Part shown: positions 2,718 to 57,025 of the stretch, piece after piece | Position numbering within the stretch: position 1 is the first letter of the stretch | Layout: each line of letters begins with the position of its first letter | Assembly (NCBI GenBank): GCA_945862145.1 | Contig: CAMAXE010000007.1 | Coordinates: 1 to 64,000 of the forward strand | DNA length: 64,000 nt | Origin: Klebsiella pneumoniae | Lineage (GTDB): Bacteria > Pseudomonadota > Gammaproteobacteria > Pseudomonadales > UBA5518 | Direction: 5' to 3' | Made by a program: the position numbers and the translations under genes | Notes under the pieces: generated by a model | What the model was told of the DNA's origin: nothing | The model's database searches: none | The model's input: the letters and a program-made list of their open reading frames with translations, nothing else

Positions 2718-4114
2718 TGGAGTCCGCGCTTACCGGGTTCGTGCGGGTGCTCCGCAATGCGGAGCTCCGCGTGTCGCCGGCCGAAACCCTGGACGCCGCA
2801 CGCGCCATGGAGCTGGTGGGATACGCCGATCGCGGGAGACTGCGCGAGGTGTTGTCTGCCACGCTCGCCAAGACGGTCCCCGAAAAAGCGCTCTTCGACG
2901 AATGCTTCGCGCGCTTCTTCGCGCCGCCCGTAGACAAAGATTCCCAAACCGACAGCGAGCCGCCACCGCAAACCTCTTCACCAGGCGATGGGCAGGCAGC
3001 GCCACCCTCCGGCGTATCCCTGCAGGGTGCCTTTTCCGGTGAGCTCTCGGCGCTCTCGGAGATGATGCTGCAGGGCGACAACACCAGCCTTGCGCTGGCA
3101 GTCGATGCGGCGGGTCGCGCCATCGGTATCGAGCGGATGCAAATGTTCACGCAGCGCGGGCTCTACGGGAGACGCGTGCTGGAGGCCCTTGGCTGGCAGC
3201 AACTGCAGGACGACATGCTGCGGCTGGAACAGGCGCCGGCCGAGGCTGAGCCCGGACGCGCGGCGGGGCTCGCACTCAAACGCGCCGCGGATCAGCTCCG
3301 CGAGCGCGTGCGCGACTATATCGAGCAGCAGTACCTTCTTTACGCGAGCGGCAATGCCCGGGCCCTGCGCGAGTCGGTGCTGCGCGAGGCGCGGCTCTCG
3401 AACCTGGAGCGGCGCGATCTCGAGCAGATGAACCGTCTGGTTCGGCGCATCGCACGGCGGCTCGCCGCGCGGCATGCACGGCGCCGGCGCCGCGCAAAAA
3501 AAGGGTTGCTCGACGTGCCACGGACGCTGCGCAGCGGCGCGGCACACGACGGGCTGATCTTCGAGCCGCGCTGGAAACAAGTGCGACGCGACCGGCCGTC
3601 ACTGGTGGTGCTCTGCGACGTCAGCGGATCGGTGCGCGCCTATGCGCGCTTCCTGCTGTTGTTCCTCTACGGGCTGGGGGATGTGCTGCCACGGGTGCGC
3701 GGCTTTGTATTCTCATCGCAACTGGCGGAGATCACGGAGCTGTTCGGACAGAATCGTCCGGAGGTGGCGATCGAGCTCGCGCTGAAGCAGTGGGGCTATG
3801 GCTCCACCGACTACGGCGTGGCGCTGCGCGGGCTGCTGGAGAGCACTGGCCGCGAACTCGACGGCGGCGCCACGGTGGTCATCCTGGGTGACGGGCGCAA
3901 CAACCGCGGGGACCCGGCGATGGATGCGCTGCGCGAAATTGGCCAGCGCGCGCGCCGGGTGGTGTGGCTCAACCCGGAATCGGTCAGCAGCTGGGGAACC
4001 GGCGACTCCGAAATGCTGCGCTACCGCAGTTGCGTGTCCGAGGCGCGCACGGTCAGGACTCTCGCGCAGCTCGAGCGCTTCGCAGACGAGCTGCTGCGCA
4101 ACCCGTCCTGGTGA
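2717..4114 (+). CDS. VWA domain-containing CoxE-like protein
   Basis: This 465-residue protein is the usual partner of MoxR ATPases. The N-terminal ~280 residues are charged, with a very basic stretch (RRIARRLAARHARRRRRAKK) before the C-terminal von Willebrand factor A fold. The MIDAS metal site is recognisable as DVSGS in the segment VVLCDVSGSVRAYARF, and a later GDGRNN segment probably completes it. No signal peptide or membrane segment is visible, so it should act in the cytoplasm. It overlaps the MoxR gene by one base (TGATG), which suggests translational coupling and a stoichiometric complex. CoxE homologues are required for Mo-enzyme activation, which fits the molybdenum-related operon. 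Confidence 0.85.
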   Translation: MESALTGFVRVLRNAELRVSPAETLDAARAMELVGYADRGRLREVLSATLAKTVPEKALFDECFARFFAPPVDKDSQTDSEPPPQTSSPGDGQAAPPSGVSLQGAFSGELSALSEMMLQGDNTSLALAVDAAGRAIGIERMQMFTQRGLYGRRVLEALGWQQLQDDMLRLEQAPAEAEPGRAAGLALKRAADQLRERVRDYIEQQYLLYASGNARALRESVLREARLSNLERRDLEQMNRLVRRIARRLAARHARRRRRAKKGLLDVPRTLRSGAAHDGLIFEPRWKQVRRDRPSLVVLCDVSGSVRAYARFLLLFLYGLGDVLPRVRGFVFSSQLAEITELFGQNRPEVAIELALKQWGYGSTDYGVALRGLLESTGRELDGGATVVILGDGRNNRGDPAMDALREIGQRARRVVWLNPESVSSWGTGDSEMLRYRSCVSEARTVRTLAQLERFADELLRNPSW

Positions 4115-4133
4115 GCGAAACAGCCGACGCGGA

Positions 4134-5861
4134 TCAGGTGCTCTCGTCCGGGCGCTCCCGGTTACCACGCCCCTGGCGCTCATCGGAACGCTGCGGCGAA
4201 GGCTCGCTCCGAGGAGCGCTGTAGCTCGGCGTCTCACGGGGTGGCGGCGGCGTGTAGCTCGGCTGCGACTGACGCGGCGCGCTGTAACTCGGCTGCGACT
4301 GACGCGGAGCGCTGTAGCTCGGCGTCTCACGCGGCGGCGGCGGCGTGTAGCTCGGCTGCGTCTGACGCGGAGCGCTATAGCTCGGCGTCTCGCGAGGTGG
4401 CGGCGGCGTGTAACTCGGCTGCGACTGACGCGGGGTGCTGTAGCTCGGCGTCTCGCGCGGTGGCGGCGGCGTGTAACTCGGCTGCTCCTGACGCGGAGTG
4501 CTGTAGCTCGGCGTCTCCCCAGCAGGAGGCCGATAGGCTGGCATCTCCGTGCGCGGTACCGCCGCCTCATCCTGCTCTTCCCGGCGAGACGCACCGCCGG
4601 CGGGCGATTCACGGGGACGGTCTCCTCGGTCCTCACGATCAGGACCTGAGGCTCTTGGAACGGAACCATCGGGTCTTGGGGGATTGGCCGGACGGCCCTG
4701 ATCCGGAGCGCCGGGGGCAGTGCCTTCCACGGGCGCGGGCGGCGGAACCGTAGCCCCGGTCAGCGGCTCAAGAGGCGGTTGGCCCGGTGCCGGCGAAGTC
4801 GCGCCACCAGGGTTGGTTTGCGGACGGCCACGGGGCGCGTGGCTGTCATCGCGCTTGCCGTGCCCACCCTCGATGACCTCGCCTTCATGCTCACCACGCG
4901 GCGGCCCGGGGTCCGTGTCGGGAACCACGGGGACCTGGGCACCACCCGCACCCGCGGGCGGCGGCTGACGCGGCGCAGCCTCTGGGTAGTCGGGTGGCTG
5001 ACGACGGGGCACTGGGTCATTCTTGTCACGGTAGCGGTCATAGACGCTCCGGTTACGGTAAGGCACACCCTTGCGGTGCTGGTACTCGTGCTTCCAGCGA
5101 TAGCGCGGCGGCGGCCGGTGATGGTAGTAAAACGGGGGCGCCTCGACGATGCGCACGTAGCGGTCGCGCCAATCGTAGTGGCTGAAGAAAAACCCGTGCC
5201 CGACCACGACAGAGGGGCCCCAGAAAAATCCGCTGTAGCCGGAGTAATAGCGATAACCCGTCCACGGCGACCAGCGCACAGGCTGGTAGTCAGGCCACCA
5301 CCAGCTGCCATAGATCATCATCGGGTCGTAGTAAGGGACGTACACCACATCCGGGTAGCGGTTGCGCACGATGATCGTGCGCTCCTCCCTGACCACCCGT
5401 ACATGCTCGGTTTCCTTGAGGTTGCCCGCCTCGTCGGCACGCTTGCGCAGGGCCTGGACAGTCTCCATGACCTGCTCCTGCTGGGCGAGGAACGCATCCC
5501 CCAGACGGCGCATCCACTCGAGGTCCTCGTCCATACTGGACAGTATCTGCGGGAACGCCAGCATCGCCTTGACGCTCGGATCCCAAGACTCTTGGTCGGC
5601 GGCGCGCACAGCGTCCTGGCCCTTCAGCTCGGGATGCGCGCGGGAAAAGCGCGCTGCCTCCACCACCTCAAGCGGGTAAGTGGCCGCCATCAGGATCTGG
5701 GAAAGCAACTCGTCCGGATACAGGGCCACGGGGGCCAGCATCTGGTCGAGTTCGGCTTGGGAGAACAGCGGAACATCCTCTGGCGCTGGCTCCTCGGCCA
5801 GCGCGAAAGGGGAGAGACTCAGGGCAAGAACCGTCAGCAACCGCAAAACGAGCGTGGTCAC
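4134..5861 (-). CDS. DUF3300 secreted protein with Pro/Ser/Tyr-rich repeat tail
   Basis: I chose the GTG at 5861 because it is preceded by AGGAAAAA and opens a clear signal peptide (VTTLVLRLLTVLALSLSPFALA). The protein is then 575 residues, and a longer open frame upstream has no signal. Residues ~30-230 form the DUF3300 domain (LAPVALYPDELLSQILMAATYP, then a Tyr/Trp-rich part with DVVYVPYYDPMMIYG). The C-terminal third is low-complexity: Gly/Pro-rich, then several ~21-residue repeats with the pattern RETPSYS.PRQ.QPSYTPPPP. DUF3300 has no firmly known function. The export signal and repeat tail suggest an envelope or surface location. It is convergent with the CoxE-like gene. Confidence 0.8.
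   Translation of the reverse strand: MTTLVLRLLTVLALSLSPFALAEEPAPEDVPLFSQAELDQMLAPVALYPDELLSQILMAATYPLEVVEAARFSRAHPELKGQDAVRAADQESWDPSVKAMLAFPQILSSMDEDLEWMRRLGDAFLAQQEQVMETVQALRKRADEAGNLKETEHVRVVREERTIIVRNRYPDVVYVPYYDPMMIYGSWWWPDYQPVRWSPWTGYRYYSGYSGFFWGPSVVVGHGFFFSHYDWRDRYVRIVEAPPFYYHHRPPPRYRWKHEYQHRKGVPYRNRSVYDRYRDKNDPVPRRQPPDYPEAAPRQPPPAGAGGAQVPVVPDTDPGPPRGEHEGEVIEGGHGKRDDSHAPRGRPQTNPGGATSPAPGQPPLEPLTGATVPPPAPVEGTAPGAPDQGRPANPPRPDGSVPRASGPDREDRGDRPRESPAGGASRREEQDEAAVPRTEMPAYRPPAGETPSYSTPRQEQPSYTPPPPRETPSYSTPRQSQPSYTPPPPRETPSYSAPRQTQPSYTPPPPRETPSYSAPRQSQPSYSAPRQSQPSYTPPPPRETPSYSAPRSEPSPQRSDERQGRGNRERPDEST
4201..4520 (-). repeat. ~63-bp coding tandem repeats (Pro-rich tail of the DUF3300 protein)
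   Basis: Four to five imperfect 63-bp units, plus shorter partial units, encode ETPSYS/QPSYTPPPP blocks on the minus strand. The unit is a multiple of three, so copy-number change would keep the frame. Repeat arrays of this kind often vary in length between strains. Confidence 0.85.
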
Positions 5862-42989: not shown

Positions 42990-43108
42990 CATCGGGCCGG
43001 GGGGAGTGCCCCCGGCCATGTCCGCGGAACCGCGTAGGGGCATCGGGCCGGGGGGAGTGCCCCCGGCCATGTCCGCGGAACCGCGTAGGAGCGGGCCATG
43101 CCCGCGAC
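42990..43108. repeat. Two 51-bp direct repeats with hairpin, followed by a REP-like unit
   Basis: A 51-bp unit beginning GCATCGGGCC occurs twice in a row, at about 42990 and 43041. Each copy holds a 9-bp perfect inverted repeat (GGCCGGGGG and CCCCCGGCC around GAGTG). The second copy runs into a REP-like unit (43085-43108) with the same GAGCGGGCCATGCCCGC core as the array at the window start. It sits between the GGDEF-EAL gene and the cytochrome c5 gene. Confidence 0.9.
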
Positions 43109-43137
43109 AGTCCGAGGGACGAGTGGCCGCACATGCA

Positions 43138-43563: not shown

Positions 43564-43752
43564 GTGAGGACCCCCTGACTGTGGCAGTTGTACGAAAGAC
43601 CACGGCGTTTGGTCTTCGGCGGCCCGGATTATAGCGACAGCCCGCGCCCCCGAAACAGCCACACGGGTCATTTGCCATGGACGCTTCGCGGGAGCGGCGG
43701 TTATCATCCAGAATATTCGCCAGACGTGCGCCCGCAGGATCCCCGTAACCGC

Positions 43753-43776
43753 GTAGGAGCGGGCCATGCCCGCGAC
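43753..43776. repeat. Solitary REP-like palindromic unit
   Basis: A 24-bp copy with core GAGCGGGCCATGCCCGC matches the one at 43085 exactly over the core. The surrounding 43564-43882 gap holds nothing else that I recognise apart from promoters presumed for the cytochrome and the tRNA. Confidence 0.85.
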
Positions 43777-43882
43777 CATCGGATTGTGCGAACGCCGCGA
43801 GCCTCCGGGCGAGTGGCCGGACCCGACGCCGCAGGCGCAGGGGAGCGCTGCCCCACAGGCAGTGACAGAATCGACAGAGTTT

Positions 43883-43959
<77 letters not shown>

Positions 43960-44126
43960 TCTCCCCCCTATCTCTTGACCCATGCGATTCGCCACGCACC
44001 CGCCACGCAGCTTTGGCAGCCTCAGGTGGTGGGGTATTGCATACTTTACAATGAGCCACAAAGAATCCCGGTGCTGGTGGCCACGAGGACGGTGCCAGGG
44101 CCGGGTTCGCTCAAAGGATTGTGTAG

Positions 44127-44279
44127 ATGGGTCAGGCAACGCATAACAAGATCGTTTCGTTTAGCTGGGGCATCGCCGCGCTACGCGGCCTCCTCGAGGC
44201 ACACAGCGTCGCCATTCTCGCCATCGAGAAGGAGGCCGAGGGACTGCTGGATGGACTCTTGAAGGGAGTCGGGCGATGA
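44127..44279 (+). pseudogene. hsdM remnant (type I restriction methyltransferase, large internal deletion)
   Basis: A 50-codon frame begins MGQATHNKIVSFSWGIA, which is the characteristic N terminus of type I HsdM subunits (normally about 500 residues or more). It then jumps directly into a short helical tail (LLEAHSVAILAIEKEAEGLLDGLL) that resembles the end of such a protein. The simplest reading is an in-frame deletion that removed the whole catalytic core. Its TGA overlaps the ATG of the next frame. It cannot be an active methylase. Confidence 0.7.
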
Positions 44280-45421
44280 AGAAAAAGCCCGCGGCAACCC
44301 GGCGCCAGTCCGGGCCATCCGCGATCAGGGGCGAAAACAACCAACACCCGGGGCGCGGCGCCGCAGCGGAAACGCCTGCCGTTGTCGATGAGGCAATGTT
44401 GCTCTCTGACCTGCGCAGCTTGATCCACTCTGCCCGCCAGCGGATCGCCACGGTGGCCTATTCCACCCACACCTTGCTCTGCTGGCACATGGGGCGACGT
44501 CTCCTGCGCGAACATCTGCACGGCGGCCGTGCCGCTTACGGCAAGCAGATTCTCGTGACCGTGTCACGAGAATTGACCGCGGACTAAGGTCGGGGCCTCA
44601 GCTACGCCGAGATTGCCCGGATGATCCAGTTCGCGCAGTTGTTCCCGAGTGAGGCGATTGTCGTGACCTTGTCACAACAATTGAGCTGGTCGCATGTTCA
44701 CGCGCTGCTCCCTATCAAGGACCCGCTCGCCCGCGATTTCTACGCCGAGATGTGCCGGGTCGAGCGCTGGGACGTGCGCACGCTGCGGCAGAAAATCGGA
44801 GGCATGTTGTTCCAACGCACCGCGTTGTCGAAGAAGCCCGAGGCCGCGATCGCAGCAGAGATCGCAACGCTGCGCGATGGCCAGGTGACCCCCGATCTCG
44901 TGTTTCGCGATCCCTATGTGCTGGATCTGCTCGGGCTCGAGGGAGCCTACAGCGAGCGCGATCTCGAGGCCGCCATCCTGCGCGAGATCGAAGCCGTGCT
45001 GCTGGAGCTGGGCAGTGGCTTCGCCTTTGTCGCACGCCAGAAACGCATGAGTGTCGGCAAGGATGATTTCCACCTCGATTTGCTCTTCTATCATCGCCAC
45101 CTGCGCCGCCTGATCGCCGTTGAGCTCAAGCTCGAAGCCTTCCAGCCTGCCCATGTGGGGCAGATGGAGCTGTACCTGCGCTGGCTCGACAAACACGAAC
45201 GCGCGGCGGGCGAAGAAGCGCCGATCGGGCTGATCCTGTGCGCCGGTGCGGACGCCGAGCAAGTAGAGCTGCTCGAGCTCGACGCCAAGGCCATCCGGGT
45301 GGCCGAGTACCTGACGGCGTTGCCGCCGCTGCCCCTGCTCCGCCAGCGCCTGCATCAGGCGATCGAGCACGCACGGGAACGCGCCGCCCGCCGCCTGCCC
45401 AGCGAAGGAGACCATTCATGA
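44276..45421 (+). pseudogene. DUF1016 (YhcG-type) PD-(D/E)XK nuclease interrupted by an in-frame TAA
   Basis: Two consecutive segments in the same frame form one DUF1016 protein of 381 codons with a TAA at 44585-44587. Upstream is the N-terminal domain, ending LVTVSRELTAD. Downstream is GRGLSYAEIARMIQFAQLFP, SQQLSWSHVHALLPI and the nuclease domain with DDFHLDLLFYHRHLRRLIAVELKLE. Family members have A-E/D-Y-GRG at the stop, so a Tyr codon has become TAA. Internal starts at 44621 (ATG) could still give a nuclease-domain fragment of 266 residues. The gene overlaps both neighbours by 4 bp. Confidence 0.8.
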
Positions 45422-47520
45422 AAGCCACTGAAGCCAAGCTGCTCAGCCTCCTGCAGAAGTCGCCGCAGTTCATCATCCCGATCTACCAGCGCACCTATTC
45501 GTGGACCGAGAAGCAGTGCCGCCAGCTGTGGGACGACATCCTGCGCGCCGGCTCGAGCGACGTCATCGCTGTGCATTTCGTCGGCTCCATCGTTTATGTC
45601 GAGCAGGGCCTGTCACAGGTATCGCACCAATCCCCGTTGCTCGTGATCGACGGTCAGCAGCGCCTGACCACCGTGTCCTTGCTGATCGAAGCTCTGGCCT
45701 GCGCGGTGGGCGACAGCGAACCCGTCGACGGCTTCTCGGCACCCAAGCTGCGGCACTACTACCTGAGCAACCCGCTGGAGAGCGGCGAGCGCTATTACAA
45801 GCTGCTGCTTTCGCAGACCGACAACGCCTCGCTCAAGGCGATCATCAAACACAGCGAGCCGCCCCAGGAGCCGTCGCTGCGAGTGACGCAGAACCTCCAG
45901 CTCTTCACCGACTTGCTCGCTGAGCAAAGGGACGACCTTGCCACTGTCTGTCGCGGTCTCGCCAAGCTGGTGGTGGTGGACATCGCGCTCAGCCGCGATC
46001 AGGACAACCCGCAGCTCATCTTCGAGAGCATGAACTCGACGGGCAAGGAACTCTCTCAGGCCGACCTGATCCGCAACTACATCCTGATGGGGCTAGACCC
46101 CGCCCTGCAGACACGGCTCTACGAGCACTACTGGCGGCCAATGGAGCTCGACTTCGGACAGGAGGCCTACGGCACGCAGTTCGACAGTTTCATGCGTCAC
46201 TACCTGACGGTGCGAACGGGCGAGATCCCGCGCGAGCGCGAGGTCTACGAGGCCTTCAAGGAGCACACCCGTACCCAGCCCGTGCAGGCGGCCGGCATCG
46301 AGGCGCTGGTGAAGGACATCCGCGCCTTCGCCCGCTATTACTGCGCCATGGCGCTCGGACGCGAACCCGACGCAACGCTCGCCGTCGTCTTCCACGACCT
46401 GCGCGAGCTGAAGGTGGATGTCGCCTATCCCTTCCTGCTCGAGCTCTATGACGCCTACGACGCAAAGCGACTCGCCGCCGCCGACTTCGCCACCGCCGTG
46501 CGACTGGTGGAGGCCTATGTGTTCCGCCGCGCCATCTGCGCGATCCCCACCAACTCGATGAACAAGACCTTCGGCACTTTTGGTAAGGCACTGCGGCCCG
46601 ATCGCCTGCTGGAGAGCATCCGGGCGCACTTTCTCACGCTGCCCTCATACCGCCGCTTTCCCGGCGATGACGAGTTCCGCCGCGACCTGCACACCCGCGA
46701 TCTCTACAACTTCCGCAGCCGCAGCTACTGGCTGCGACGTCTCGAAAACCACGACCGCAAGGAACGGGTGGCGGTAGACGAATACACCATCGAGCACATC
46801 CTGCCGCAGAACCCCGAGTTGTCGCCCCCGTGGCGGCAGGCGCTCGGGGCCGACTGGCAACGCGTGCAGCAGCAGTGGCTGCACACGCTCGGCAACCTCA
46901 CGCTCACGGCCTACAACGCGGAATACAGCGACCGACCCTTCGCCGAGAAACGCGACATGCCGGGCGGCTTTGCGCAGAGCCCGCTGAAACTGAACGCCGG
47001 GCTGGGGCAAGTGACGGTGTGGGACGAAGCGGCTATCCACAACCGCGCCGGGCGACTCGCGGACCTGGCGCTGGCCGTGTGGAGCGCGCCCACGCTCGAT
47101 GCCGAGACACTGGCGAGCTATCAACCCACCAGGGAGCCCGCAACGAGCGGCTACACCATCACGGATCACCCGCACCTGCTCGCGGGTGGCATGCAGCCGG
47201 TGTTCGAGGCGTTCCGCAAGCAGGTGCTCGCGCTCGACCCGAATGTGACGGAGGAGTTCAAGAAGCTCTTTGTGGCCTACAAGGCCGAAGGCACGTTCGT
47301 AGCGCTTGTCCCGCAGGCGAAACGTTTGCTGTGTTCGATCAATCTCAATTTTTCTGATGCTCACGACCCGAAGTCGCTGTGCCGAGACGTGAACGGCATT
47401 GGACGCTGGACGAGCGGTGATGTGGAAATCGGCCTCAAGTCGCTCGATGAGCTGCCCTATGTGATGGAGCTGGTACGGCAGTCGTATGAACGCCAGATGG
47501 GCGACGGAGGCCAGCCATGA
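45418..47520 (+). CDS. GmrSD-like DUF262/DUF1524/DUF5655 protein (candidate type IV restriction enzyme)
   Basis: This intact 700-residue protein starts at the ATG overlapping the DUF1016 stop. The N-terminal DUF262 domain has IPIYQRTYSW (residues 20-29) and VIDGQQRLTT (about 77-86), a ParB-like nucleotide-binding motif. The DUF1524 HNH-like nuclease has YTIEHILPQN (His460) and LHTLGNLTLTAYN. The last ~110 residues, with FKKLFVAYKAEGTFVALVPQAKRLLC and VNGIGRWTSGDVEIGLKS, fit DUF5655. GmrS/GmrD proteins cut modified phage DNA using nucleotides. It is the only clearly intact gene of the restriction island. Confidence 0.85.
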   Translation: MKATEAKLLSLLQKSPQFIIPIYQRTYSWTEKQCRQLWDDILRAGSSDVIAVHFVGSIVYVEQGLSQVSHQSPLLVIDGQQRLTTVSLLIEALACAVGDSEPVDGFSAPKLRHYYLSNPLESGERYYKLLLSQTDNASLKAIIKHSEPPQEPSLRVTQNLQLFTDLLAEQRDDLATVCRGLAKLVVVDIALSRDQDNPQLIFESMNSTGKELSQADLIRNYILMGLDPALQTRLYEHYWRPMELDFGQEAYGTQFDSFMRHYLTVRTGEIPREREVYEAFKEHTRTQPVQAAGIEALVKDIRAFARYYCAMALGREPDATLAVVFHDLRELKVDVAYPFLLELYDAYDAKRLAAADFATAVRLVEAYVFRRAICAIPTNSMNKTFGTFGKALRPDRLLESIRAHFLTLPSYRRFPGDDEFRRDLHTRDLYNFRSRSYWLRRLENHDRKERVAVDEYTIEHILPQNPELSPPWRQALGADWQRVQQQWLHTLGNLTLTAYNAEYSDRPFAEKRDMPGGFAQSPLKLNAGLGQVTVWDEAAIHNRAGRLADLALAVWSAPTLDAETLASYQPTREPATSGYTITDHPHLLAGGMQPVFEAFRKQVLALDPNVTEEFKKLFVAYKAEGTFVALVPQAKRLLCSINLNFSDAHDPKSLCRDVNGIGRWTSGDVEIGLKSLDELPYVMELVRQSYERQMGDGGQP

Positions 47521-47654
47521 TTACCGACCTCAAGCCCTACGCGGAGTAGGAGGAATCATTGAAAAACGACACGGATTTCTACAAGCAGTTTGTGCAAAAC
47601 GATTCACTCAAACGGTTTGTGTCGGATACCTCGTTTTATCTGACGAGCAGGTAG
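47517..47654 (+). pseudogene. hsdS 5' end fused to hsdR 3' end (type I restriction remnant)
   Basis: An ATG overlapping the previous stop opens MITDLKPYAE, the classic HsdS N terminus, and then reads TAG where HsdS proteins have Tyr (KPY..YK.SG). In the same frame follow EES and then LKNDTDFYKQFVQNDSLKRF and VSDTSFYLT, which look like the C-terminal end of HsdR. A deletion therefore seems to have joined the first ~14 codons of hsdS to the last ~31 of hsdR, with a nonsense codon in between. No functional product is expected. Confidence 0.7.
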
Positions 47655-47753
47655 AAGGACCACGACGATCCCATCGGCCATAGGAATCCCGCACTAGCGG
47701 CAAAGCTCAGCTAAGATCCCCGCAATTCAGACTCCCCAGCGTGGAGTAATTTG

Positions 47754-48941
47754 ATGGCAACCGACGCCGCCAACCCCCAAAGCCTGATCCGTGAGGCCAT
47801 GTCGCTGCTGCAACGCGGCGATACCGGGGGCGCCATGGCGCAGCTCGAGGTCGCGCTGCAGCGCTTTCCCCAGGATGCCGGCGTGCGCCTGAACCGCGCG
47901 ATGGTGCAGCGCGTTGCGGGCAACTTGCACGCGGCACTCGCCGAGCTGGAGGCAGCACTCGTCATCGACCCGTATTTCTTCCTCGCGCTGCTGTCGAAGG
48001 GCTCGGTGCTGGAGCGGATGGGCGAACTGAGAGCAGCCGCGTTGGTCTATCGCGATGCGATCAAGATCGCGCCCCCAACCCACACCATGCCGGCAGCCAT
48101 GCAGGAACCCCTGACTCATGCGCGCGCAATCGTAGAGGAAGACGCGCGCAATCTCGCCGAATTCCTGCAGCAGCAAACCGCCAGCGTGAAAGCGGCACAC
48201 GCCGGTACGACGAGCGCACGTCTCGACGAATGCCTGCAGATCCTCGCGGGACGCCAGCGCATCTACCACGCCGAGCCGGTGCAGCTGCACGTCCCCCGAT
48301 TGCCGGCCATCCCCTTTTTCGATCGCTCTTACTTCCCGTGGCTTCCCACACTCGAAGCCGCCACCGGGACGATCCGGGAGGAACTCACTGCACTGATGGA
48401 CGCGGGCATGCCGGGCTTCGCGCCGTACATCAACTACCCGCCCGGGGCGCCGCTCAATCAGTGGGCCGAACTCAACCGCAGCAGCGAGTGGAGTTCCTTG
48501 TGGCTGTGGCGCGATGGACGGCCGCAGGCAGAGGCGATCGCTCGCTGCCCGCGCACGGCGGCGCTGCTCGCCGAGCTGCCGATGGCCGATCAACCCGGCT
48601 TCGCACCAACGGCCGTGTTCTCAGCGCTCGCGCCGCGCACACATATTCCCCCACATACCGGCTCCACCAACGCACGCCTGCTGGTACACCTGCCGCTTAT
48701 CCTGCCCGGGCCGGCCAGATTCCGGGTGGGCAACGCGGAACGTGCCTGGCAGATGGGCCAAGCGTGGTGCTTCGATGATTCGATCGAGCACGAGGCGTGG
48801 AACGATGCGGACCAGACGCGGGTCATCCTGATTTTCGATATCTGGAATCCGCTCTTGAGCCAAGCCGAGCGGGCGCTTGTTTCTGCGTTGATGCTCGCCA
48901 GAACGGCGTGGTACGAACCGGGGTCGAGGCCAAATCACTAG
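47754..48941 (+). CDS. TPR plus aspartyl/asparaginyl beta-hydroxylase domain protein
   Basis: This 395-residue protein starts at the ATG at 47754. Residues 1-120 hold TPR-like helices (AMAQLEVALQRFPQDAGVRLNRAMV, ALAELEAALVIDPYFFLALL). The C-terminal double-stranded beta-helix has the Fe/2-oxoglutarate pattern of the AspH family: a histidine in PRTHIPPHTGSTNARLLVHLPL and another in FDDSIEHEAWN. The substrate is unknown and could be a protein side chain or lipid A. It ends in a short convergent overlap with the TetR gene. Confidence 0.85.
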   Translation: MATDAANPQSLIREAMSLLQRGDTGGAMAQLEVALQRFPQDAGVRLNRAMVQRVAGNLHAALAELEAALVIDPYFFLALLSKGSVLERMGELRAAALVYRDAIKIAPPTHTMPAAMQEPLTHARAIVEEDARNLAEFLQQQTASVKAAHAGTTSARLDECLQILAGRQRIYHAEPVQLHVPRLPAIPFFDRSYFPWLPTLEAATGTIREELTALMDAGMPGFAPYINYPPGAPLNQWAELNRSSEWSSLWLWRDGRPQAEAIARCPRTAALLAELPMADQPGFAPTAVFSALAPRTHIPPHTGSTNARLLVHLPLILPGPARFRVGNAERAWQMGQAWCFDDSIEHEAWNDADQTRVILIFDIWNPLLSQAERALVSALMLARTAWYEPGSRPNH

Positions 48942-49576
48942 CCCGGCGTATTGCCATCCCGCGGGACGAGCAATGGTGTCACGAGCGCAATCCACCGCCC
49001 CATCAGACGATCCAGATAGCCTTGATCATCCGTGTACTGCTGCTGGATCACCAGTCCGCGTATCACGCATGCGTTGAGTGCCATCAGGAGTTCGACATCC
49101 TCCTCGCCACCCGAACGACCGCTATATCCCGCACGATTTATGGCCATGGCCTGGCGGTGCCAGTCGGCCAGCGCGGGCGCCAGGCGCTGGCGCAACGCAT
49201 CGTCGGTGCGCATGCGGATGAGGATCTCGAGCAGCGCACGGAATTCCGCCGTGTTGGCCCCCCTCTGCCAGGTGCGCTGCAATTCGCGGGCGATCGAGCG
49301 CTCGGCACTCGGTTGGCGGGTGCTGCGCAGTTGCAGGAAGCTTGCGTTCGCAAGAAGGTGAAGCGCCGTGGCACTCATCAGGTCCTCCTTGCTGCGAAAG
49401 TGGTGCTGCAGCGCACCTTTGGACACGCCCGCTAGCTCGACCACCCGATTAATGGAGGTATCGGCGTAGCCGGCGTCAACCAGACATGCGACCACCGCAT
49501 CGCAGATACGGGCCTTTACCGCGGCACTCTTGCTTGCCTGTCTTCGCGGAGCCTGTTCGCACGACATCCCACGCAT
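48938..49576 (-). CDS. TetR-family transcriptional regulator
   Basis: This 212-residue regulator has an N-terminal helix-turn-helix (ICDAVVACLVDAGYADTSINRV, then GVSKGALQHHFRSKEDLMSA) and a helical ligand domain. It diverges from the atuA-like gene, with a candidate operator in the 113-bp gap. It is therefore the likely repressor of the AtuA/carboxylase operon, probably released by an acyl-CoA or terpene ligand. Confidence 0.88.
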   Translation of the reverse strand: MRGMSCEQAPRRQASKSAAVKARICDAVVACLVDAGYADTSINRVVELAGVSKGALQHHFRSKEDLMSATALHLLANASFLQLRSTRQPSAERSIARELQRTWQRGANTAEFRALLEILIRMRTDDALRQRLAPALADWHRQAMAINRAGYSGRSGGEEDVELLMALNACVIRGLVIQQQYTDDQGYLDRLMGRWIALVTPLLVPRDGNTPG

Positions 49577-49603
49577 CCTGTTTTGGGTCCACCGACCCTA
49601 GCA

Positions 49604-49629
49604 CAAACCAATACACATGGATTGTTTTG
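49604..49629. promoter_or_regulatory. Candidate TetR operator (inverted repeat)
   Basis: CAAACCAAT and ATTGTTTTG, separated by 8 bases, form a near-perfect inverted repeat (8 of 9 positions) in the divergent TetR-atuA gap. The size suits a TetR dimer site. Confidence 0.5.
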
Positions 49630-49689
49630 CTGCTACGCCAGTGTTAAAAGTCTGTGGTGATCGCAAGCGATGTCAGGCGAGGGGCTTGC

Positions 49690-51486
49690 ATGCAAGACCA
49701 TCCCATACGAATCGGAGGTGCCAGCGGCTTCTGGGGCGACGCCGCGCTGGCCACCGGGCAGTTGCTCGCCGCGGGGCGGCTGGACTATCTGGTCTACGAC
49801 TATCTAGCCGAAATAACCATGTCGATCCTGGCGCGCGCCCGCCGAGCAGATCCGTGCCTCGGGTACGCCACGGACTTCCTGACCGCAGCGATGCAGCCCA
49901 ACCTGCAGGCGATCGCCGCGCAGGGCGTGAAGGTCATCGCCAATGCCGGTGGCGTGAACCCGCAGGGCTGCGCGGAGGCGCTGCGCGCGCTGATCGAGGC
50001 GCAACAACTGCCCCTCAAGGTGGCAGTCGTACTGGGCGACGATCTGTTCCCGGCCGTCGAGGCGTTTTCTGCCGGCGATTTCCGCGAGATGTTTTCCGGC
50101 GAACCCTTCCCTCCCGCAGACCGGATCGCGAGCATGAATGCCTACCTCGGCGCTTTTCCCATCGCTCGCGCACTGGAGGCAGGCGCCGATATCGTGCTCA
50201 CCGGCCGTTGCGTGGACAGCGCCGTCAGCCTGGGCGCCTGCATTCATGCCTTTGGCTGGGGCCGGGAGAATCTCGACTACCTGGCGCAAGGCAGTCTTGC
50301 CGGTCACCTGCTCGAATGCGGCACCCAAGCAACCGGCGGCAACTTCACCGACTGGGAACAGATTACAGCGTCGCTGGCTGATATCGGCTACCCGATCGCC
50401 GAGGTCATGCCCACCGGCGATTTCGTGCTCACCAAGCCCGCCGGAACCGGAGGCTGCGTCAGCATCGGGACCGCAGCGGAGCAGATGCTCTACGAAATCG
50501 GCGATCCGCAGGCTTATCTGCTGCCCGACGTAGTGTGCGATTTTTCACAGGTGACGATGGAGCAACAGGGCCCGGACCGGGTGCTGGTCCGTGGTGCGCG
50601 CGGAAAGTCGGCACCCGACACCGTCAAGGTAAGCGTGACATGGACCGACGGTTTCCGCGGCGGCGAGGTGTGGACCTACTACGGGCGCGACGCCGAGACC
50701 AGGGCCCGCCGCTTCGCCGAACTGGTGCTGGAGCGTTCAGGGCGTGCCCTCTCGGCGCGCGGCTTGCCGGCATTCCGCGAGACCTGCGTGGAGATCATCG
50801 GCGCGGAAAGCCACTACGGCGCGGCCCGCACTCTCACACGCCCGCGTGAAGTGATCGTGAAAATCGCGGCGCGTCACGATTCTGCGGCGGGAATAGGCGT
50901 ACTGTTCAAGGAAACCGTTGGTCTCGCACTGTCGGCACCGCCAGGCCTGACGGGCTTCGCGGGAGGTCGACCCAAGCCCTCGCCGGTAGTGCGCCTGTTC
51001 TCCATGCTGGTGCCCAAATCAGCACTGGACGTCAGGGTGGAATTCGAGGGCAGATCGATCCAGTGCAGCGACCCACCGGGCACGCCTGCCCACAGCGCCA
51101 CGCGGGAACACCCCGAACCCCCGCAAGTGTCCACGCACGACGAAGTGCTGGTTGTGCTGCCGCTCGAGCGCCTTGCCTGGGCACGCAGCGGAGACAAGGG
51201 TGACAAGGCCAACATCGGCGTGATCGCTCGGCGCCCTGAGTACCTGCCCTGGATATGGTCAGTGCTGGATGAAGACGCAGTGAAGCTGCGTTTCGCGCAT
51301 TTTCTGCGCGGCAGAGTCGAGCGATTCTTATTGCCAGGGCTGCCCGCGATCAACTTTCTGCTGCACGATGTCCTGGGCGGCGGCGGTGTTGCGAGCCTGC
51401 GAAACGACCCGCAAGGCAAGGGTTATGCCCAACTGCTGCTCGAGTACCCGATTCCGCTGCCCGCTTCCCTTGCGGAGACCCTCTGA
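49690..51486 (+). CDS. atuA: AtuA-family protein (acyclic terpene utilization, DUF1446)
   Basis: This 598-residue cytoplasmic protein starts at the ATG at 49690. The N-terminal DUF1446 part has IRIGGASGFWGDAALATGQLL, YDYLAEITMSILARA, VIANAGGVNPQGCAEAL and VLTGRCVDSAVSLGA. The C-terminal small domain begins near LPLERLAWARSGDKGDKANIGVIARRPE. AtuA is required for growth on citronellol/geraniol in Pseudomonas, but its reaction is unclear. It is coupled (TGATG) to a carboxylase beta subunit. The other atu genes (hydratase, dehydrogenase) are absent from the window. Confidence 0.88.
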   Translation: MQDHPIRIGGASGFWGDAALATGQLLAAGRLDYLVYDYLAEITMSILARARRADPCLGYATDFLTAAMQPNLQAIAAQGVKVIANAGGVNPQGCAEALRALIEAQQLPLKVAVVLGDDLFPAVEAFSAGDFREMFSGEPFPPADRIASMNAYLGAFPIARALEAGADIVLTGRCVDSAVSLGACIHAFGWGRENLDYLAQGSLAGHLLECGTQATGGNFTDWEQITASLADIGYPIAEVMPTGDFVLTKPAGTGGCVSIGTAAEQMLYEIGDPQAYLLPDVVCDFSQVTMEQQGPDRVLVRGARGKSAPDTVKVSVTWTDGFRGGEVWTYYGRDAETRARRFAELVLERSGRALSARGLPAFRETCVEIIGAESHYGAARTLTRPREVIVKIAARHDSAAGIGVLFKETVGLALSAPPGLTGFAGGRPKPSPVVRLFSMLVPKSALDVRVEFEGRSIQCSDPPGTPAHSATREHPEPPQVSTHDEVLVVLPLERLAWARSGDKGDKANIGVIARRPEYLPWIWSVLDEDAVKLRFAHFLRGRVERFLLPGLPAINFLLHDVLGGGGVASLRNDPQGKGYAQLLLEYPIPLPASLAETL

Positions 51487-53108
51487 TGCCCGTTTTCCAC
51501 AGCCGTCTTAACACCACCTCGGAAGCCTTTGTCGCCAACCGCAGCGAGATGCTCGCACTGATCGGACGCCTGCGTGGCTACGAGGCACGGGCCACGGCGC
51601 TCTCCGAGAAGCGCCGCGCGCGCTTCGAGGAGCGTGGACAACTAACGCCGCGCGAGCGTCTGAACCGTCTGCTCGATCCGGGGATGCCCTTCCTCGAGCT
51701 CTACAACATGGCCAACTTCCTGGTCGACGACCCAGACCCGGCCACCAGCATTTCCGGCGCAAGCCTGATCGCCGGAATCGGTTTCGTCGCCGGCGTGCGC
51801 TGCATGGTCTACGTGGACGACAGCGGAATCAACGCAGGCGCGGCAACCACTACCACCGTCACCAAAGCGCTCGCCTGCCTGCAAATGGCGCTGCGCCACA
51901 GACTCCCTTTCGTGCATCTGGTGGAAAGCGCCGGAGCCAATCTCATGCAATACACCGTGGAACTGTGGGCCAATGGTGGCGGCATGTTCTACCGCAAGGC
52001 GCTGCTGAGTGCCGCGGGAATTCCCACCTTCGTGGTGCTGCACGGGCCCTCTACAGCGGGCGGCGCCTACCAGCCCGGCATGAGCGACTACGTGATCGGT
52101 ATAAAGAAAAACGGCATGGCTGCGCTTGCCGGGGCTGCGCTGCTGCGCGCCGCAACGGGCGAAATCGCCGACGAGCGCGCACTGGGCGGCACCGAAATGC
52201 ACGCCACGACCTCGGGTCTGGTGGAATACCTTGCGGAGGATGACGCGCACGGATTGAGCATCGCGCGCGACCTGTTGCGTCGCATCGACTGGAACAGCAA
52301 GTGCATTCCTTTGCCGGTCAAACCCGTGGCACCGCCGCTATATGCCACTGACGAAATAGCCGGACTGGTCCCCGTTGACTACCGCAAACCCTATGACGTG
52401 CGGGAGCTGGTAACGCGACTGGTGGATGGCTCTGATTTTTCGGACTTCAAACCCGGCTACGGCATGTCCACGGTCTGTCTGCAGGCCGAGATCATGGGCT
52501 TTGCCTGCGGAATCATCGGAAACAACGGCCCGATCGACCCGGCTGGCGCGACCAAGGCAGCGCAGTTCATGCAGCTCTGCGATCAGGCGCAACTGCCGCT
52601 GGTGTTCCTGAGCAACACCACCGGTTTCATGGTAGGCACCGAATACGAACATGCAGGCATGATCAAACATGGATCGAAGATGATCCAGGCGGTATCCAAC
52701 GTGCGCGTGCCGAAGATCACGCTCTATATCGGCGCCAGCTTCGGTGCGGGCAACTATGGCATGTGCGGCTTTGCCTACAACCCCGATTTCCTGTTCGCAT
52801 GGCCAAACGCCGTTACGGGCGTCATGGGTGGAGAACAAGCTGCACTCACAATGGAGCAGGTCGCGCGGGTCTCGGCAAAACGCCGCGGCGGTGCAGTCGA
52901 CGAAGCAGCGCTCGCGCGGCAGCGGGAGGCCATCGTGGGTCACTATGAACGGCAGTCGGACGCCTTCTACACCTCCGGGCGCTGCCTCGACCACGGCGTT
53001 ATCGACCCGCGCGATACACGCAGGGTGCTGGGTTTTGCGCTCGAAACCATCCACGAAGCACGTCACCGAAGGCTGCACCCGAACGCCTTCGGCGTGGCGA
53101 GAATGTGA
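51486..53108 (+). CDS. Biotin-dependent acyl-CoA carboxylase, carboxyltransferase (beta) subunit
   Basis: This 540-residue carboxyltransferase is of the methylcrotonyl/geranyl-CoA class. N-terminal segments MLALIGRLRGYEARATAL and RGQLTPRERLNRLLDPG, the acyl-CoA region GGAYQPGMSDYVIGI with GGTEMHATTSGLVEY, and the biotin side FLSNTTGFMVGTEYE and GASFGAGNYGMCG are present. With the alpha subunit it would carboxylate a branched enoyl-CoA. The AtuA neighbour favours geranyl-CoA (AtuC-like), but methylcrotonyl-CoA cannot be excluded. Confidence 0.92.
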   Translation: MPVFHSRLNTTSEAFVANRSEMLALIGRLRGYEARATALSEKRRARFEERGQLTPRERLNRLLDPGMPFLELYNMANFLVDDPDPATSISGASLIAGIGFVAGVRCMVYVDDSGINAGAATTTTVTKALACLQMALRHRLPFVHLVESAGANLMQYTVELWANGGGMFYRKALLSAAGIPTFVVLHGPSTAGGAYQPGMSDYVIGIKKNGMAALAGAALLRAATGEIADERALGGTEMHATTSGLVEYLAEDDAHGLSIARDLLRRIDWNSKCIPLPVKPVAPPLYATDEIAGLVPVDYRKPYDVRELVTRLVDGSDFSDFKPGYGMSTVCLQAEIMGFACGIIGNNGPIDPAGATKAAQFMQLCDQAQLPLVFLSNTTGFMVGTEYEHAGMIKHGSKMIQAVSNVRVPKITLYIGASFGAGNYGMCGFAYNPDFLFAWPNAVTGVMGGEQAALTMEQVARVSAKRRGGAVDEAALARQREAIVGHYERQSDAFYTSGRCLDHGVIDPRDTRRVLGFALETIHEARHRRLHPNAFGVARM

Positions 53109-53193
53109 GGCCCTTACACCCGATGGGACCACGGTCACCGCACAACACCCCGTCCTCCGCCCGCGCGGCGGACAATGCAGACGGAGCCCTCAG

Positions 53194-55206
53194 ATGAGTA
53201 GCTTGCGCCGGATCCTGGTCGCCAACCGCGGCGAAATCGCATTGCGCGTGATCCGGGGCGCGCAGGCGCTTGGCTGCCGCGCCATTGCGGTGTATTCGGA
53301 GGCGGACGCCGATTCGCCTCACGTGCGGGCGGCCGATGACGCCGTCCTGATCGGTCCCGCCCCTGCAGCGCAATCCTATCTCTCCATCGAGCGGATCGTG
53401 AACGCAGCACAGGTCACGCAGGCGCAGGCCGTGCACCCGGGCTACGGATTCCTCTCGGAAAACGCCGACTTTGCGCGCGCCTGCACGGCGGCAGGGCTGA
53501 TTTTCATCGGGCCGTCGGCTGAAGCGATCGAATTGATGGGCAACAAAGCCGCCGCCAAGCGGCGGATGATCGCGGCCGGCGTGCGCTGCGTGCCGGGCTA
53601 TGAGGGCGATGACCAGTCCGAGCCGTGCTTGATGGCTGAAGCCCTCGCGATCGGTTTTCCGCTCATGGTGAAGGCGGTCGCGGGCGGCGGCGGGCGCGGC
53701 ATGCGACTGGTGCAGTGCCATGAGGATCTGCCCGCCGCACTGCGGATGGCACGCTCCGAGGCGACGAGCGCCTTCGGTTCAGGTGATCTGATCCTGGAGA
53801 AGGCCATCGTGCGGCCGCGTCACGTGGAGTTTCAGGTGTTCGCCGACCATCACGGCAACGTGATACACCTTGGCGAGCGCGACTGCTCGGTGCAGCGACG
53901 ACACCAGAAGGTGGTCGAGGAAGCGCCTTGCCCGGTGATGACTGCCGCACTGCGCGAGCGTATGGGGCAGGCAGCCGTGGAGGCCGCGCGCAGCATCGAC
54001 TACCGCGGCGCGGGCACCGTGGAGTTTCTGCTCGACGAGGGCGGTGAATTCTATTTTCTCGAGATGAACACCCGACTCCAGGTCGAGCATCCGGTCACCG
54101 AAATGATCACTGGACTCGACCTCGTCGCCATGCAAATCCAGGTGGCCGAAGGCAAGCCGCTCGGGATCCGACAGGAGGAGCTTCGTATGGCGGGCCACGC
54201 CATCGAAGCGCGCCTCTACGCGGAGGATCCCGCGCGGGAGTTCCTGCCGGTCACCGGAACCATCTCGCTATGGCAACCCGCACAGGGTCCCGGTGTGCGC
54301 GTGGACGCCGGCATCGTGACTGGGCAACAGATCTCGCCGTTTTACGACCCGATGCTGGCCAAGGTGATAGCGTGGGGCGAGAACCGCGAAGTGGCTACCG
54401 CGCGACTCCTCGAGGCGCTCGAGCACACGCGGCTGCTGGGGATAACCACGAACAAGGCTTTCCTTGCCGATATCCTGTGTCGCGATTCGTTCCGCGCCGG
54501 CGTCGCCACAACGGCATTCATCGGCGAGGTGTTCGGCAAGGCAGATCTTGCTGAGCCGCCGCTCGACATCCGCACTGCGGCCATCGCAGCGGTGCTGCAG
54601 TATGTGGATACACGCACGGTGCTGCAGGCGACATCCCTTGGCGTGAACAGGGAGTTGCTCGACTGGAGTTCGGCCGGTGCGCTGCGCACGCCGTACCTGT
54701 ATCGGTGTGCAGATACACAGGTTGCGCTGTCGATATGCGCCACGGGTGGCGGTCGCTACAGGGCTGAGCACGGGGCAAACACTCTCGAACTGGTGCTCGA
54801 GGGTCTGCAGGGCAACGAGGCCACCGTTCTGGTCGATGGCCACCGCGTGCGTACGACTTTCTGCTGCCCCAACGCATCAGAGATCCATCTGGCCCTGGGA
54901 CAGCGGAGTTTGCACCTGCACAACGAGCTTGCCCTGACCGGCAGCCGCGGGGAGAGCGCCGGCGGGGGGCAGGTGATTGCGTTGATGCACGGTGTGGTGC
55001 TGGAAGTGTGCGCGGTGCTTGGGCAGCGGGTGAGCAAAGGCAGCACGCTTGCAATACTTGAGGCGATGAAGATGCAGCATGAACTGCGCGCCTTGATAGA
55101 CGGCACGGTAAAGGCGGTGCACGTGGCTGCCGGCACCCAAGTAGCAGCCGGCGAGTTGCTGATCGAGATCGAGGAAACCGACGTGCCCGCGACTACGGCA
55201 ACCTGA
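53194..55206 (+). CDS. Biotin-dependent acyl-CoA carboxylase, biotin carboxylase/carrier (alpha) subunit
   Basis: This 670-residue protein starts at the ATG at 53194. The biotin carboxylase domain has ILVANRGEIALRVIRGAQ, AVHPGYGFLSENADFA, the ATP loop KAVAGGGGRGMRLV and EMNTRLQVEHPVTEMITG. The C-terminal carrier domain holds the biotinyl lysine in LAILEAMKMQHELRA. It pairs with the beta subunit 86 bases upstream to make an AtuC/AtuF- or LiuB/LiuD-type enzyme. Confidence 0.93.
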   Translation: MSSLRRILVANRGEIALRVIRGAQALGCRAIAVYSEADADSPHVRAADDAVLIGPAPAAQSYLSIERIVNAAQVTQAQAVHPGYGFLSENADFARACTAAGLIFIGPSAEAIELMGNKAAAKRRMIAAGVRCVPGYEGDDQSEPCLMAEALAIGFPLMVKAVAGGGGRGMRLVQCHEDLPAALRMARSEATSAFGSGDLILEKAIVRPRHVEFQVFADHHGNVIHLGERDCSVQRRHQKVVEEAPCPVMTAALRERMGQAAVEAARSIDYRGAGTVEFLLDEGGEFYFLEMNTRLQVEHPVTEMITGLDLVAMQIQVAEGKPLGIRQEELRMAGHAIEARLYAEDPAREFLPVTGTISLWQPAQGPGVRVDAGIVTGQQISPFYDPMLAKVIAWGENREVATARLLEALEHTRLLGITTNKAFLADILCRDSFRAGVATTAFIGEVFGKADLAEPPLDIRTAAIAAVLQYVDTRTVLQATSLGVNRELLDWSSAGALRTPYLYRCADTQVALSICATGGGRYRAEHGANTLELVLEGLQGNEATVLVDGHRVRTTFCCPNASEIHLALGQRSLHLHNELALTGSRGESAGGGQVIALMHGVVLEVCAVLGQRVSKGSTLAILEAMKMQHELRALIDGTVKAVHVAAGTQVAAGELLIEIEETDVPATTAT

Positions 55207-55208
55207 CC

Positions 55209-56021
55209 ATGCAGCAACTCGCCCACGACTTCCGCGACGAGAGCGAAGCGCTTTTCTCACTGCTCGCGCACCAGGACATCGCGGTGCTCGACCGGCCCAC
55301 ACTGTTCAAGGGCTGGACGCCCTGCGATGCGATCTCCCACCTGCACGCCTGGAACATCACCGCCGACATGGCGCTCAGTGCGCCCGCGGACTTCGTGCTG
55401 CACCGCGAGCGCGTGATCGCACACGTGGCGAGCGGCGGGCGACTGCTCGAGTTCGACCTGAAACTGCTCGGTGGCCTGCGGGGCCGGGAGCTGCTCGAGA
55501 CCTGGCGCGCGTTCTACACGGCGATGAGCGAACGCTTTGCGGTGGTCGAGCCGAAGCTGCGACTGCAGTGGGTTGGCCCCGAGATGAGTGCGCGCTCGAG
55601 CATCACCGCGCGCCTCATGGAAACCTGGGCGCATGCACAGGCCATCTACGACATATTGGGCGCGGCGCGCACGGACACCGACCGCATCCGCAACGTGGCG
55701 CAGATCGGCGTCAATACTTTCGGCTGGAGCTTCATCAACCGCGGGCTGCCGGTGCCCGCAGCGGCACCTCATGTACGGCTCGAAGCCCCATCGGGCGCGG
55801 TGTGGGAGTGGAATTCGCCGGAAAGCACGGATCGCATTTCCGGCCTGGCGAGCGAGTTCTGCCAAGTGGTGACGCAGGTGCGGAACGTCGCCGACACGCA
55901 ACTCCAGATAAGCGGCGACACGGCGCGGCATTGGATGTCGATCGCACAGTGCTTTGCAGGCGGCCCCGAGGAACCGCCTGCTCCAGGCACGCGACAGACG
56001 GCCGACTTCCACCGACGCTGA
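55209..56021 (+). CDS. TIGR03084-family metal-binding protein (DinB/MDMPI fold)
   Basis: This 270-residue protein starts three bases after the carboxylase. The pattern FRDESEALFSLLAHQ, TLFKGWTPCDAISHLHAWNITADMAL and the His in RLMETWAHAQAIYDIL fit the TIGR03084 family. These proteins share the DinB/maleylpyruvate-isomerase four-helix fold, with metal-binding histidines. The family is often found in acyl-CoA catabolic clusters, and its reaction is unknown. Confidence 0.82.
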   Translation: MQQLAHDFRDESEALFSLLAHQDIAVLDRPTLFKGWTPCDAISHLHAWNITADMALSAPADFVLHRERVIAHVASGGRLLEFDLKLLGGLRGRELLETWRAFYTAMSERFAVVEPKLRLQWVGPEMSARSSITARLMETWAHAQAIYDILGAARTDTDRIRNVAQIGVNTFGWSFINRGLPVPAAAPHVRLEAPSGAVWEWNSPESTDRISGLASEFCQVVTQVRNVADTQLQISGDTARHWMSIAQCFAGGPEEPPAPGTRQTADFHRR

Positions 56022-56137
56022 GGCCTGCAAGCAGCAGCGCGGCCTGACATGAAGCTCAACTCGCCGCGTATTTGACTGGCCCAATCCAGATTCATGACTT
56101 AGGCTTCAGAACGCCAATGTCCCGGACGGGGAAATCG

Positions 56138-57025
56138 ATGTATCTGAATTCCAAGCCCTTGCTGCTTCGGGGCCTTCTCGTCACGGCACTTATCGCGCTG
56201 CTGCCCGCCACGCTTGCCTTCGCGCAGCCCATGTCACCGGATCCCAAACGCCTGCACCTCGAGTCCACCAAGGCAGTGGTCTACGACGCCGAGACCGGCC
56301 AGGTGCTCTACGCCAAGAACGCCAACAACACCGTTCCCATCGCCTCGATCACCAAACTGATGACGGCCATGGTGGTGCTCGACGGCAAGCTGCCGATGGA
56401 CGAGATGCTCAGCATCTCGAAAGAAGACATAGACCGCCTTAAAGGCACCTACTCAAGGCTGCGCATCGGTACCCGGCAGTCACGCCGGGAAATGCTGCGC
56501 CTAGCGCTCATGTCCTCGGAAAATCGCGCCGCATCTGCACTCAGTCGCCACTACCCCGGCGGCAGGAAAGCCTTCATCGCGGCCATGAACAGCAAGGCTA
56601 CCGCATTGAAGATGCGGCACACACGCTTCGAGGACAGCACCGGACTGTCGAGCCACAACGTCTCCTCCGCGGGGGATCTGGTGCTGATGGCGCAAACCGC
56701 CAGCCGCTACCCGCTGATCAGCCAGTTCACCACCACCGCGGAATATTCCGTGCGCTTCCCGGAGCCGCGCTACTCGCTCGACTTCGTGAACACCAACCGT
56801 CTGGTGCGCGGCGGCTCCTGGGACATACAGCTAAGCAAGACCGGCTACACCAGCGAGGCCGGCCGTTGCCTGGTCATGAAAACCCGCGTCGGCAACCGCC
56901 CGCTCGTGATGGTGCTGCTTAACTCACAGGGCAAGCTGAGCCCGCTGGGGGATGCCAATCGCATCAAGCGGTGGCTGGAGAGCAGTCAGGCGGCGAATGC
57001 GTCGAAGTCAGGACGCAAGGCGTAG
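56138..57025 (+). CDS. pbpG: D-alanyl-D-alanine endopeptidase (PBP7-type)
   Basis: This penicillin-binding protein of the S11 family is 295 residues from the ATG at 56138 (behind GGGGAAATCG); an ATG at 56117 is the alternative. The signal peptide is LLLRGLLVTALIALLPATLAFA. The active-site motifs are SITK (PIASITKLMTAM), SEN (LMSSENRAAS) and KTG (LSKTGYT). It would cleave peptidoglycan cross-links in the periplasm. It is the last ordinary gene before the mosaic island. Confidence 0.92.
   Translation: MYLNSKPLLLRGLLVTALIALLPATLAFAQPMSPDPKRLHLESTKAVVYDAETGQVLYAKNANNTVPIASITKLMTAMVVLDGKLPMDEMLSISKEDIDRLKGTYSRLRIGTRQSRREMLRLALMSSENRAASALSRHYPGGRKAFIAAMNSKATALKMRHTRFEDSTGLSSHNVSSAGDLVLMAQTASRYPLISQFTTTAEYSVRFPEPRYSLDFVNTNRLVRGGSWDIQLSKTGYTSEAGRCLVMKTRVGNRPLVMVLLNSQGKLSPLGDANRIKRWLESSQAANASKSGRKA

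Follow-up and report, generated by a model that had tools for sequence, protein, structure and literature searches.

The window, by which we mean the whole stretch of 64,000 nucleotides that was analysed, holds at positions 44127 to 47654 what is very probably (roughly 80%) a type I restriction operon, horizontally acquired and since eroded to a remnant, with an embedded DUF1016 nuclease gene and a GmrSD-like gene, located near a tRNA-Arg(CCG), and the surviving GmrSD-like gene is itself probably fading. The likeliest account is the ordinary decay of a composite restriction locus, which is a known kind of arrangement and no new system. We counted in favor of decay the relics of the hsd genes, the intact operon of relative L003, the junction found again in congener G373, the empty sites in other congeners, the breaks in relatives L005, L011, L013, and L016, the codon phase of the repeats, the lost invariant residues, and the frameshifted hsdM on contig C37; against it, we counted the unbroken 2.1 kb frame, a dN/dS of 0.19, good ribosome-binding sequences, the DUF1016 identity with G373, and the deviations seen in relative L007. 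The remnant lies on the plus strand, 3' of the tRNA, and opens about 12 kb of variable content, with the following features:

43883 to 43959, plus strand: tRNA-Arg (CCG), from ARAGORN; left border of the variable island.
44127 to 44279, plus strand: hsdM relic, 50 aa, from HMM match and comparison with L003; same junction in G373.
44276 to 45421, plus strand: DUF1016/YhcG-type PD-(D/E)XK nuclease gene, broken by a TAA, from Pfam domains; its ATG overlaps the stop of the hsdM relic.
45418 to 47520, plus strand: GmrSD-like gene, 700 aa, DUF262 (GmrSD_N) + DUF1524 (GmrSD_C) + DUF5655, from Pfam and motifs.
47517 to 47558, plus strand: hsdS relic, codons 1-14, TAG at codon 11; HMM iE 1.3e-3.
47559 to 47654, plus strand: hsdR relic, last 31 codons (47559-47651) plus stop to 47654; HMM iE 3.9e-12.
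47751 to 48941, plus strand: TPR + aspartyl/asparaginyl beta-hydroxylase gene; next gene of the inserted stretch, outside the restriction operon.
56072 to 57025, plus strand: gene which we take, from its sequence, to be D,D-peptidase-like; right border of the variable region, abutting tRNA-Arg in congeners G372 and G369.

Neighbouring genes share an ATGA overlap at 44276, 45418, and 47517, as in a tightly coupled operon, and the ribosome-binding sequences 5' of the DUF1016 and DUF262 genes were judged good by eye. A promoter scan returned no sigma-70-like site upstream of the hsdM relic. Congener orthologues of the beta-hydroxylase gene sit in other contexts. REP-like palindromic repeats occur at window 43000-43110 and 43745-43780, with scores of copies in this genome and its congeners.

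The initial annotation had recognized an HsdM start, an HsdS start, and an HsdR-like end as stubs. We built HMMs for four protein ends, using 8 or 9 relatives that keep them: 40 residues at the N-terminus and 45 at the C-terminus of HsdM, 28 at the N-terminus of HsdS, and 45 at the C-terminus of HsdR. When these were run on all six reading frames of the window, the top matches fell at 44127-44177 for the HsdM N-terminus (iE 8.6e-7), 44193-44267 for the HsdM C-terminus (iE 1.6e-8), 47517-47558 for the HsdS N-terminus, and 47559-47648 for the HsdR C-terminus, which compares with an iE of 0.63 for the next-best match and of 0.71 or worse in a complement-only control. The four relics are colinear and in operon order (HsdM start, HsdM end, HsdS start, HsdR end), and the L003 HsdR used as query against the window's own genome matches 47517-47648 (E 3.0e-4, genome-wide). 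The HsdS and HsdR stubs are thus borne out, and the matches identify all of the relics as Hsd sequences, so that the doubt raised beforehand about their identity did not materialize. For hsdM, the start is present as noted, but it is not a start only, since the end of HsdM is there too and the lesion is an internal in-frame deletion.

More specifically, the hsdM relic joins HsdM residues 1-17 in frame to about the last 33 residues, with some 717 codons missing in frame relative to the 767 aa HsdM of L003, at a junction whose exact position cannot be placed. At the other end, HsdS residues 1-14 are fused in frame to the last 31 residues of HsdR; the hsdS relic has a TAG at codon 11 (47547-47549), and residues 11-14 continue in frame into the HsdR tail. 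The size of this deletion, estimated from coordinates, is about 4.3 kb by comparison with L006, in which hsdR directly follows hsdS, and about 6 kb by comparison with L003, which has other genes between them. The 50-aa hsdM relic, from which the gene body and with it the N6-methylase domain are absent, has no Pfam match alone; the 14 hsdS codons, with a stop at codon 11, contain no target recognition domain, and the last 31 codons of hsdR contain neither nuclease nor motor domain. No type I modification or restriction is possible from this locus. The relics, together with the intact L003 operon, support the earlier proposal that at least two large deletions collapsed a type I locus while sparing the GmrSD-like gene.

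L003 has the order hsdM-DUF262-hsdS-hsdR, with a DUF262 protein 82% identical to that of the window, and the same intact order occurs in L006, L008, L009, L012, and L017 (72-82% identity over the six). These six operons share the gene order of the window, but their hsd genes are full and hsdM is not separated from DUF262 by a DUF1016 gene. The suggested comparison with full-locus relatives was therefore answered in part: intact hsdM-DUF262-hsdS-hsdR operons were found, but none that combines an intact hsdM with a DUF1016 gene at this position. An HsdM end immediately upstream of a related DUF262 gene was found in 16 of 88 loci, or 17 loci with the window, three of which cannot be assessed (L064 and L076 are cut by contig ends, and L014 contains a run of N). 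In the 14 others, hsdM is broken in five, including the window: it is reduced to 174 aa in L005 and to 104 aa from the usual start in L016, carries an out-of-frame deletion in L013, and is frameshifted in L011. L013, L016, and L018 additionally have a broken or absent hsdS. Among further DUF262 homologues, the one in the E. coli KE47 record (L126, 9001-11076) has an early in-frame stop, and the one in the E. coli STEC639 record (L128, 9001-11087) is broken by a frame change. A reciprocal search with the L003 HsdM in 398 genomes of the phylum gave 13 matches in 12 genomes, none of which has this DUF262 in the stretches fetched, so that the frequency with which DUF262 breaks first cannot be measured from them. 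Of 31 records matched in a plasmid collection, the three that were opened (two E. coli, one Sulfitobacter) show contexts different from that of the window.

The DUF1016 gene, which sits between the hsdM relic and the DUF262 gene, is split by an in-frame TAA at 44585-44587. Both PF17761 and PF06250 are detectable in it, yet the gene is not unbroken; a 266-aa reading frame from the ATG at 44621 retains the nuclease domain. Both this stop and the hsdS-hsdR junction are known from one assembly. L005 likewise has DUF1016 genes before DUF262, following a collapsed hsdM; these are two tandem genes (L005:6001-7540), the first truncated and the second of another subfamily. An unbroken DUF1016 gene on contig C33 of the same genome is 57% identical to the broken window copy. 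No literature linking DUF1016 with type I restriction and DUF262 was found. The best PADLOC matches of the two embedded proteins are Orf5, HEC-06, PDC-S02 (DUF1016), and PDC-S18 (DUF5655 end), which are candidate-defence labels only.

The GmrSD-like gene is one open frame over 2.1 kb, and all three Pfam domains of its 700-aa product exceed their cut-offs (PF03235, 9.1e-37; PF07510, 3.2e-24; PF18899, 6.2e-13). The DUF262 motifs QR, DGQQR, and FxxxN are retained (residues 24-25, 78-82, 202, 206), as expected of a GmrSD protein, and so are the DUF1524 residues H460, N493, N500, and K511 of the His-Me (HNH) type, which are invariant in 85/85 homologues and whose catalytic roles we assigned by analogy with PMC11411939. 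The EH..P motif is also intact. The sequence profile matches SspE and a DUF262 protein of solved structure (9jfl, E 2.6e-17; 6jiv, E 1.6e-8), and an AlphaFold model from 14 sequences was poor (pLDDT 61). Nevertheless, the invariants of the family are not all conserved after the loss of the hsd genes: the window protein shows D346A, Y397L, N626T, and D629A, where 85/85 homologues keep the original residue, and K394P, where 84/85 keep the lysine. These losses lie mostly in the linker and the DUF5655 region. A leave-one-out count of private changes over 14 proteins gave 1/97 in residues 1-222 and 3/131 in residues 223-570 of the window protein, both within the range of its relatives, and 8 among the 38 columns of residues 571-700 that are otherwise invariant, compared with 0-5 in each of the 13 relatives. 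In a larger set, L007, for which no erosion is known, shows the same number of C-domain deviations as the window (7), so the pattern is unusual but not unique.

Pairwise dN/dS is 0.19 overall between the window and L003 and 0.17 between L003 and L005, and most of the window-L003 divergence behind the former value may predate the collapse. The dN of the window branch is about 2, 3, and 6 times that of the L003 branch in residues 1-222, 223-570, and 571-700, respectively, with dS about 2 times, all being rough three-point estimates by hand with L006 as outgroup, to which dS is near saturation. The residues lost against 85/85 homologues suggest relaxed constraint on the survivor. Because it has lost otherwise invariant linker and DUF5655 residues, the survivor is, as far as its sequence tells, probably a fading gene rather than the prize of the deletions.

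The alternative that survives best, although we consider it rather unlikely, is that the deletions were retained for converting a composite locus into an orphan type IV defence: the host would have discarded the methylase and restriction subunits, with the coupled GmrSD-like gene kept and still restricting modified phages. The in-frame hsdM deletions of the window, L005, and L016 preserve the overlap with the next gene, the catalytic motifs of the window protein are intact, and 72 of the 88 searched relatives have no HsdM end beside DUF262, which indicates that the gene also lives without HsdM. DUF262 is moreover open in all 14 assessable loci, but this figure is biased, since the loci were found and ranked by DUF262 similarity, and DUF262 itself is broken in L125, L126, and L128. 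The in-frame outcome is expected without selection, from slippage between short repeats within hsdM, which are mostly in codon phase: across seven intact hsdM genes, the same phase is shared by 187 of 210 direct repeats of at least 9 nt and by 9 of 10 of at least 12 nt. The L005 hsdM junction coincides with such a repeat in both protein and DNA. Of the four hsdM deletions compared, three preserve the frame; that of L013 does not, and DUF262 is still open there. In-frame deletion as proof of selection was rejected on this repeat control. The idea that the survivor was the passenger for which the deletions were selected is thus disfavored, given the repeats, the L013 deletion, and the lost invariant residues.

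A broader proposal, which we hold to be doubtful, is that GmrSD-bearing type I operons in many lineages erode repeatedly from the hsd genes inward through codon-phase repeats, and so act as a nursery of orphan type IV genes to which a short HsdM leader peptide is still coupled.

Ordinary decay gains an independent sighting from the congener G373, whose contig C234 (1-287) carries the same hsdM junction and stops 138 nt into DUF1016 (window 44413). G373 differs from the window at 2 of 149 nt in the hsdM relic and at none of the 138 nt of DUF1016, compared with 30 of 641 and 15 of 182 (about 5-8%) in the upstream flank; the identity of the first 138 nt of DUF1016 could reflect selection or gene transfer. 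The rest of the locus did not turn up in the G373 assembly. As the junction is common to both genomes, the hsdM deletion either occurred no later than the divergence of the two species or was passed from one to the other. That the stubs are chance similarity or an assembly artefact is very improbable: the HsdS relic is short, with an iE of 1.3e-3 alone, and the genome is assembled in 51 contigs, but four relics stand in operon order, each the best match in the window, and the recurrence of the hsdM junction in a separately assembled congener is incompatible with an error in one genome and comes close to refuting an artefact for hsdM.

The site between tRNA-Arg(CCG) and the peptidase-like gene (window 43960-56070) is variable within the genus. 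It is empty in G372 and G369, where the tRNA is directly followed by the peptidase-like gene; in G371, about 8.8 kb of other content separates the two, and in G370, the sequence 3' of the tRNA is different as far as the end of the contig. No piece of at least 12 nt of the tRNA and its 3' side is repeated elsewhere between 42 and 60 kb, so insertion by a tRNA-targeting integrase lacks support from the sequence.

Searches of the window's own genome with PF03235, PF02384, PF01420, PF04313, and HsdR found no full copy of the locus that would explain the stubs as duplicates, a possibility the initial annotation had left open; this candidate was rejected, as the searches returned nothing beyond another kind of locus on C37 and an hsdR on C40 that is truncated at its 5' end. 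The C37 locus (1-4220; L087) is a second type I locus with a frameshifted hsdM and an adjoining open DUF262-type gene of another subfamily. Its hsdM, in two frames, is the only other strong HsdM of the genome, and its hsdS runs off the contig. The hsdR on C40 (L180:1313-4003) has no start. No unbroken type I system was seen in this genome. Contig C33 (5000-16000; L149) carries a BREX-like locus with BrxL (by Pfam), a methylase-like protein of 1177 aa, and an embedded DUF1016 gene, along with what is presumably PglZ, recognized from its sequence and having no Pfam match. The C33 methylase scores 5.4e-7, yet was missed by the PF02384 search, which means that the genome searches are not exhaustive for distant methylases.

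We propose that a type I operon was acquired horizontally into the variable site adjoining tRNA-Arg(CCG). Recombination between short repeats, the presumed mechanism, would then have removed the hsdM body, and a second deletion would have taken nearly all of hsdS and hsdR; both losses are evident from comparison with the relatives. The DUF1016 gene would have gained its stop codon, which is present in the window, then or later, and the GmrSD-like gene would have been left as the last full-length frame. The survivor, if active, would bind modified phage DNA without Hsd subunits, with DUF262 providing NTP-dependent control and the DUF1524 His-Me (HNH) domain cutting, as family membership predicts.

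The locus documents a replicated collapse of a composite restriction locus: two congeners share one hsdM junction, and comparable breaks in hsdM are present in four unrelated relatives. It further supplies a control for later claims, as codon-phase repeats lead one to expect in-frame hsdM deletions, which are alone no sign of selection. With the survivor, one can ask in a natural setting whether constraint on a type IV enzyme relaxes after the loss of its host operon.

GmrSD genes near or inside type I loci are an already known arrangement. No description of an hsd operon eroded around an embedded GmrSD gene, and no literature on DUF5655, was found among open-licence papers. In the GmrSD family survey of Machnicka et al. 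2015 (PMC4619093), the defence domains most often found next to family members are those of type I RM systems. The window protein resembles the members described there, including RloF among the type I-linked GmrSD homologues, as a single-chain DUF262-DUF1524 enzyme, but differs in that eroded hsd genes around a GmrSD gene and DUF5655 are both absent from the text of that paper as far as it was accessible. Another close likeness is to TgvAB of Vibrio cholerae VPI-2 (PMC11411939), where GmrSD-family type IV genes with DUF262 and DUF1524 and with DGQQR and His-Me motifs lie within a type I operon, and the embedded genes work against phages whose cytosines are modified. That operon retains an intact, active type I system along with a type IV system of two proteins, whereas in the window hsdM, hsdS, and hsdR are deleted and the type IV component is one fused protein with a DUF5655 tail.
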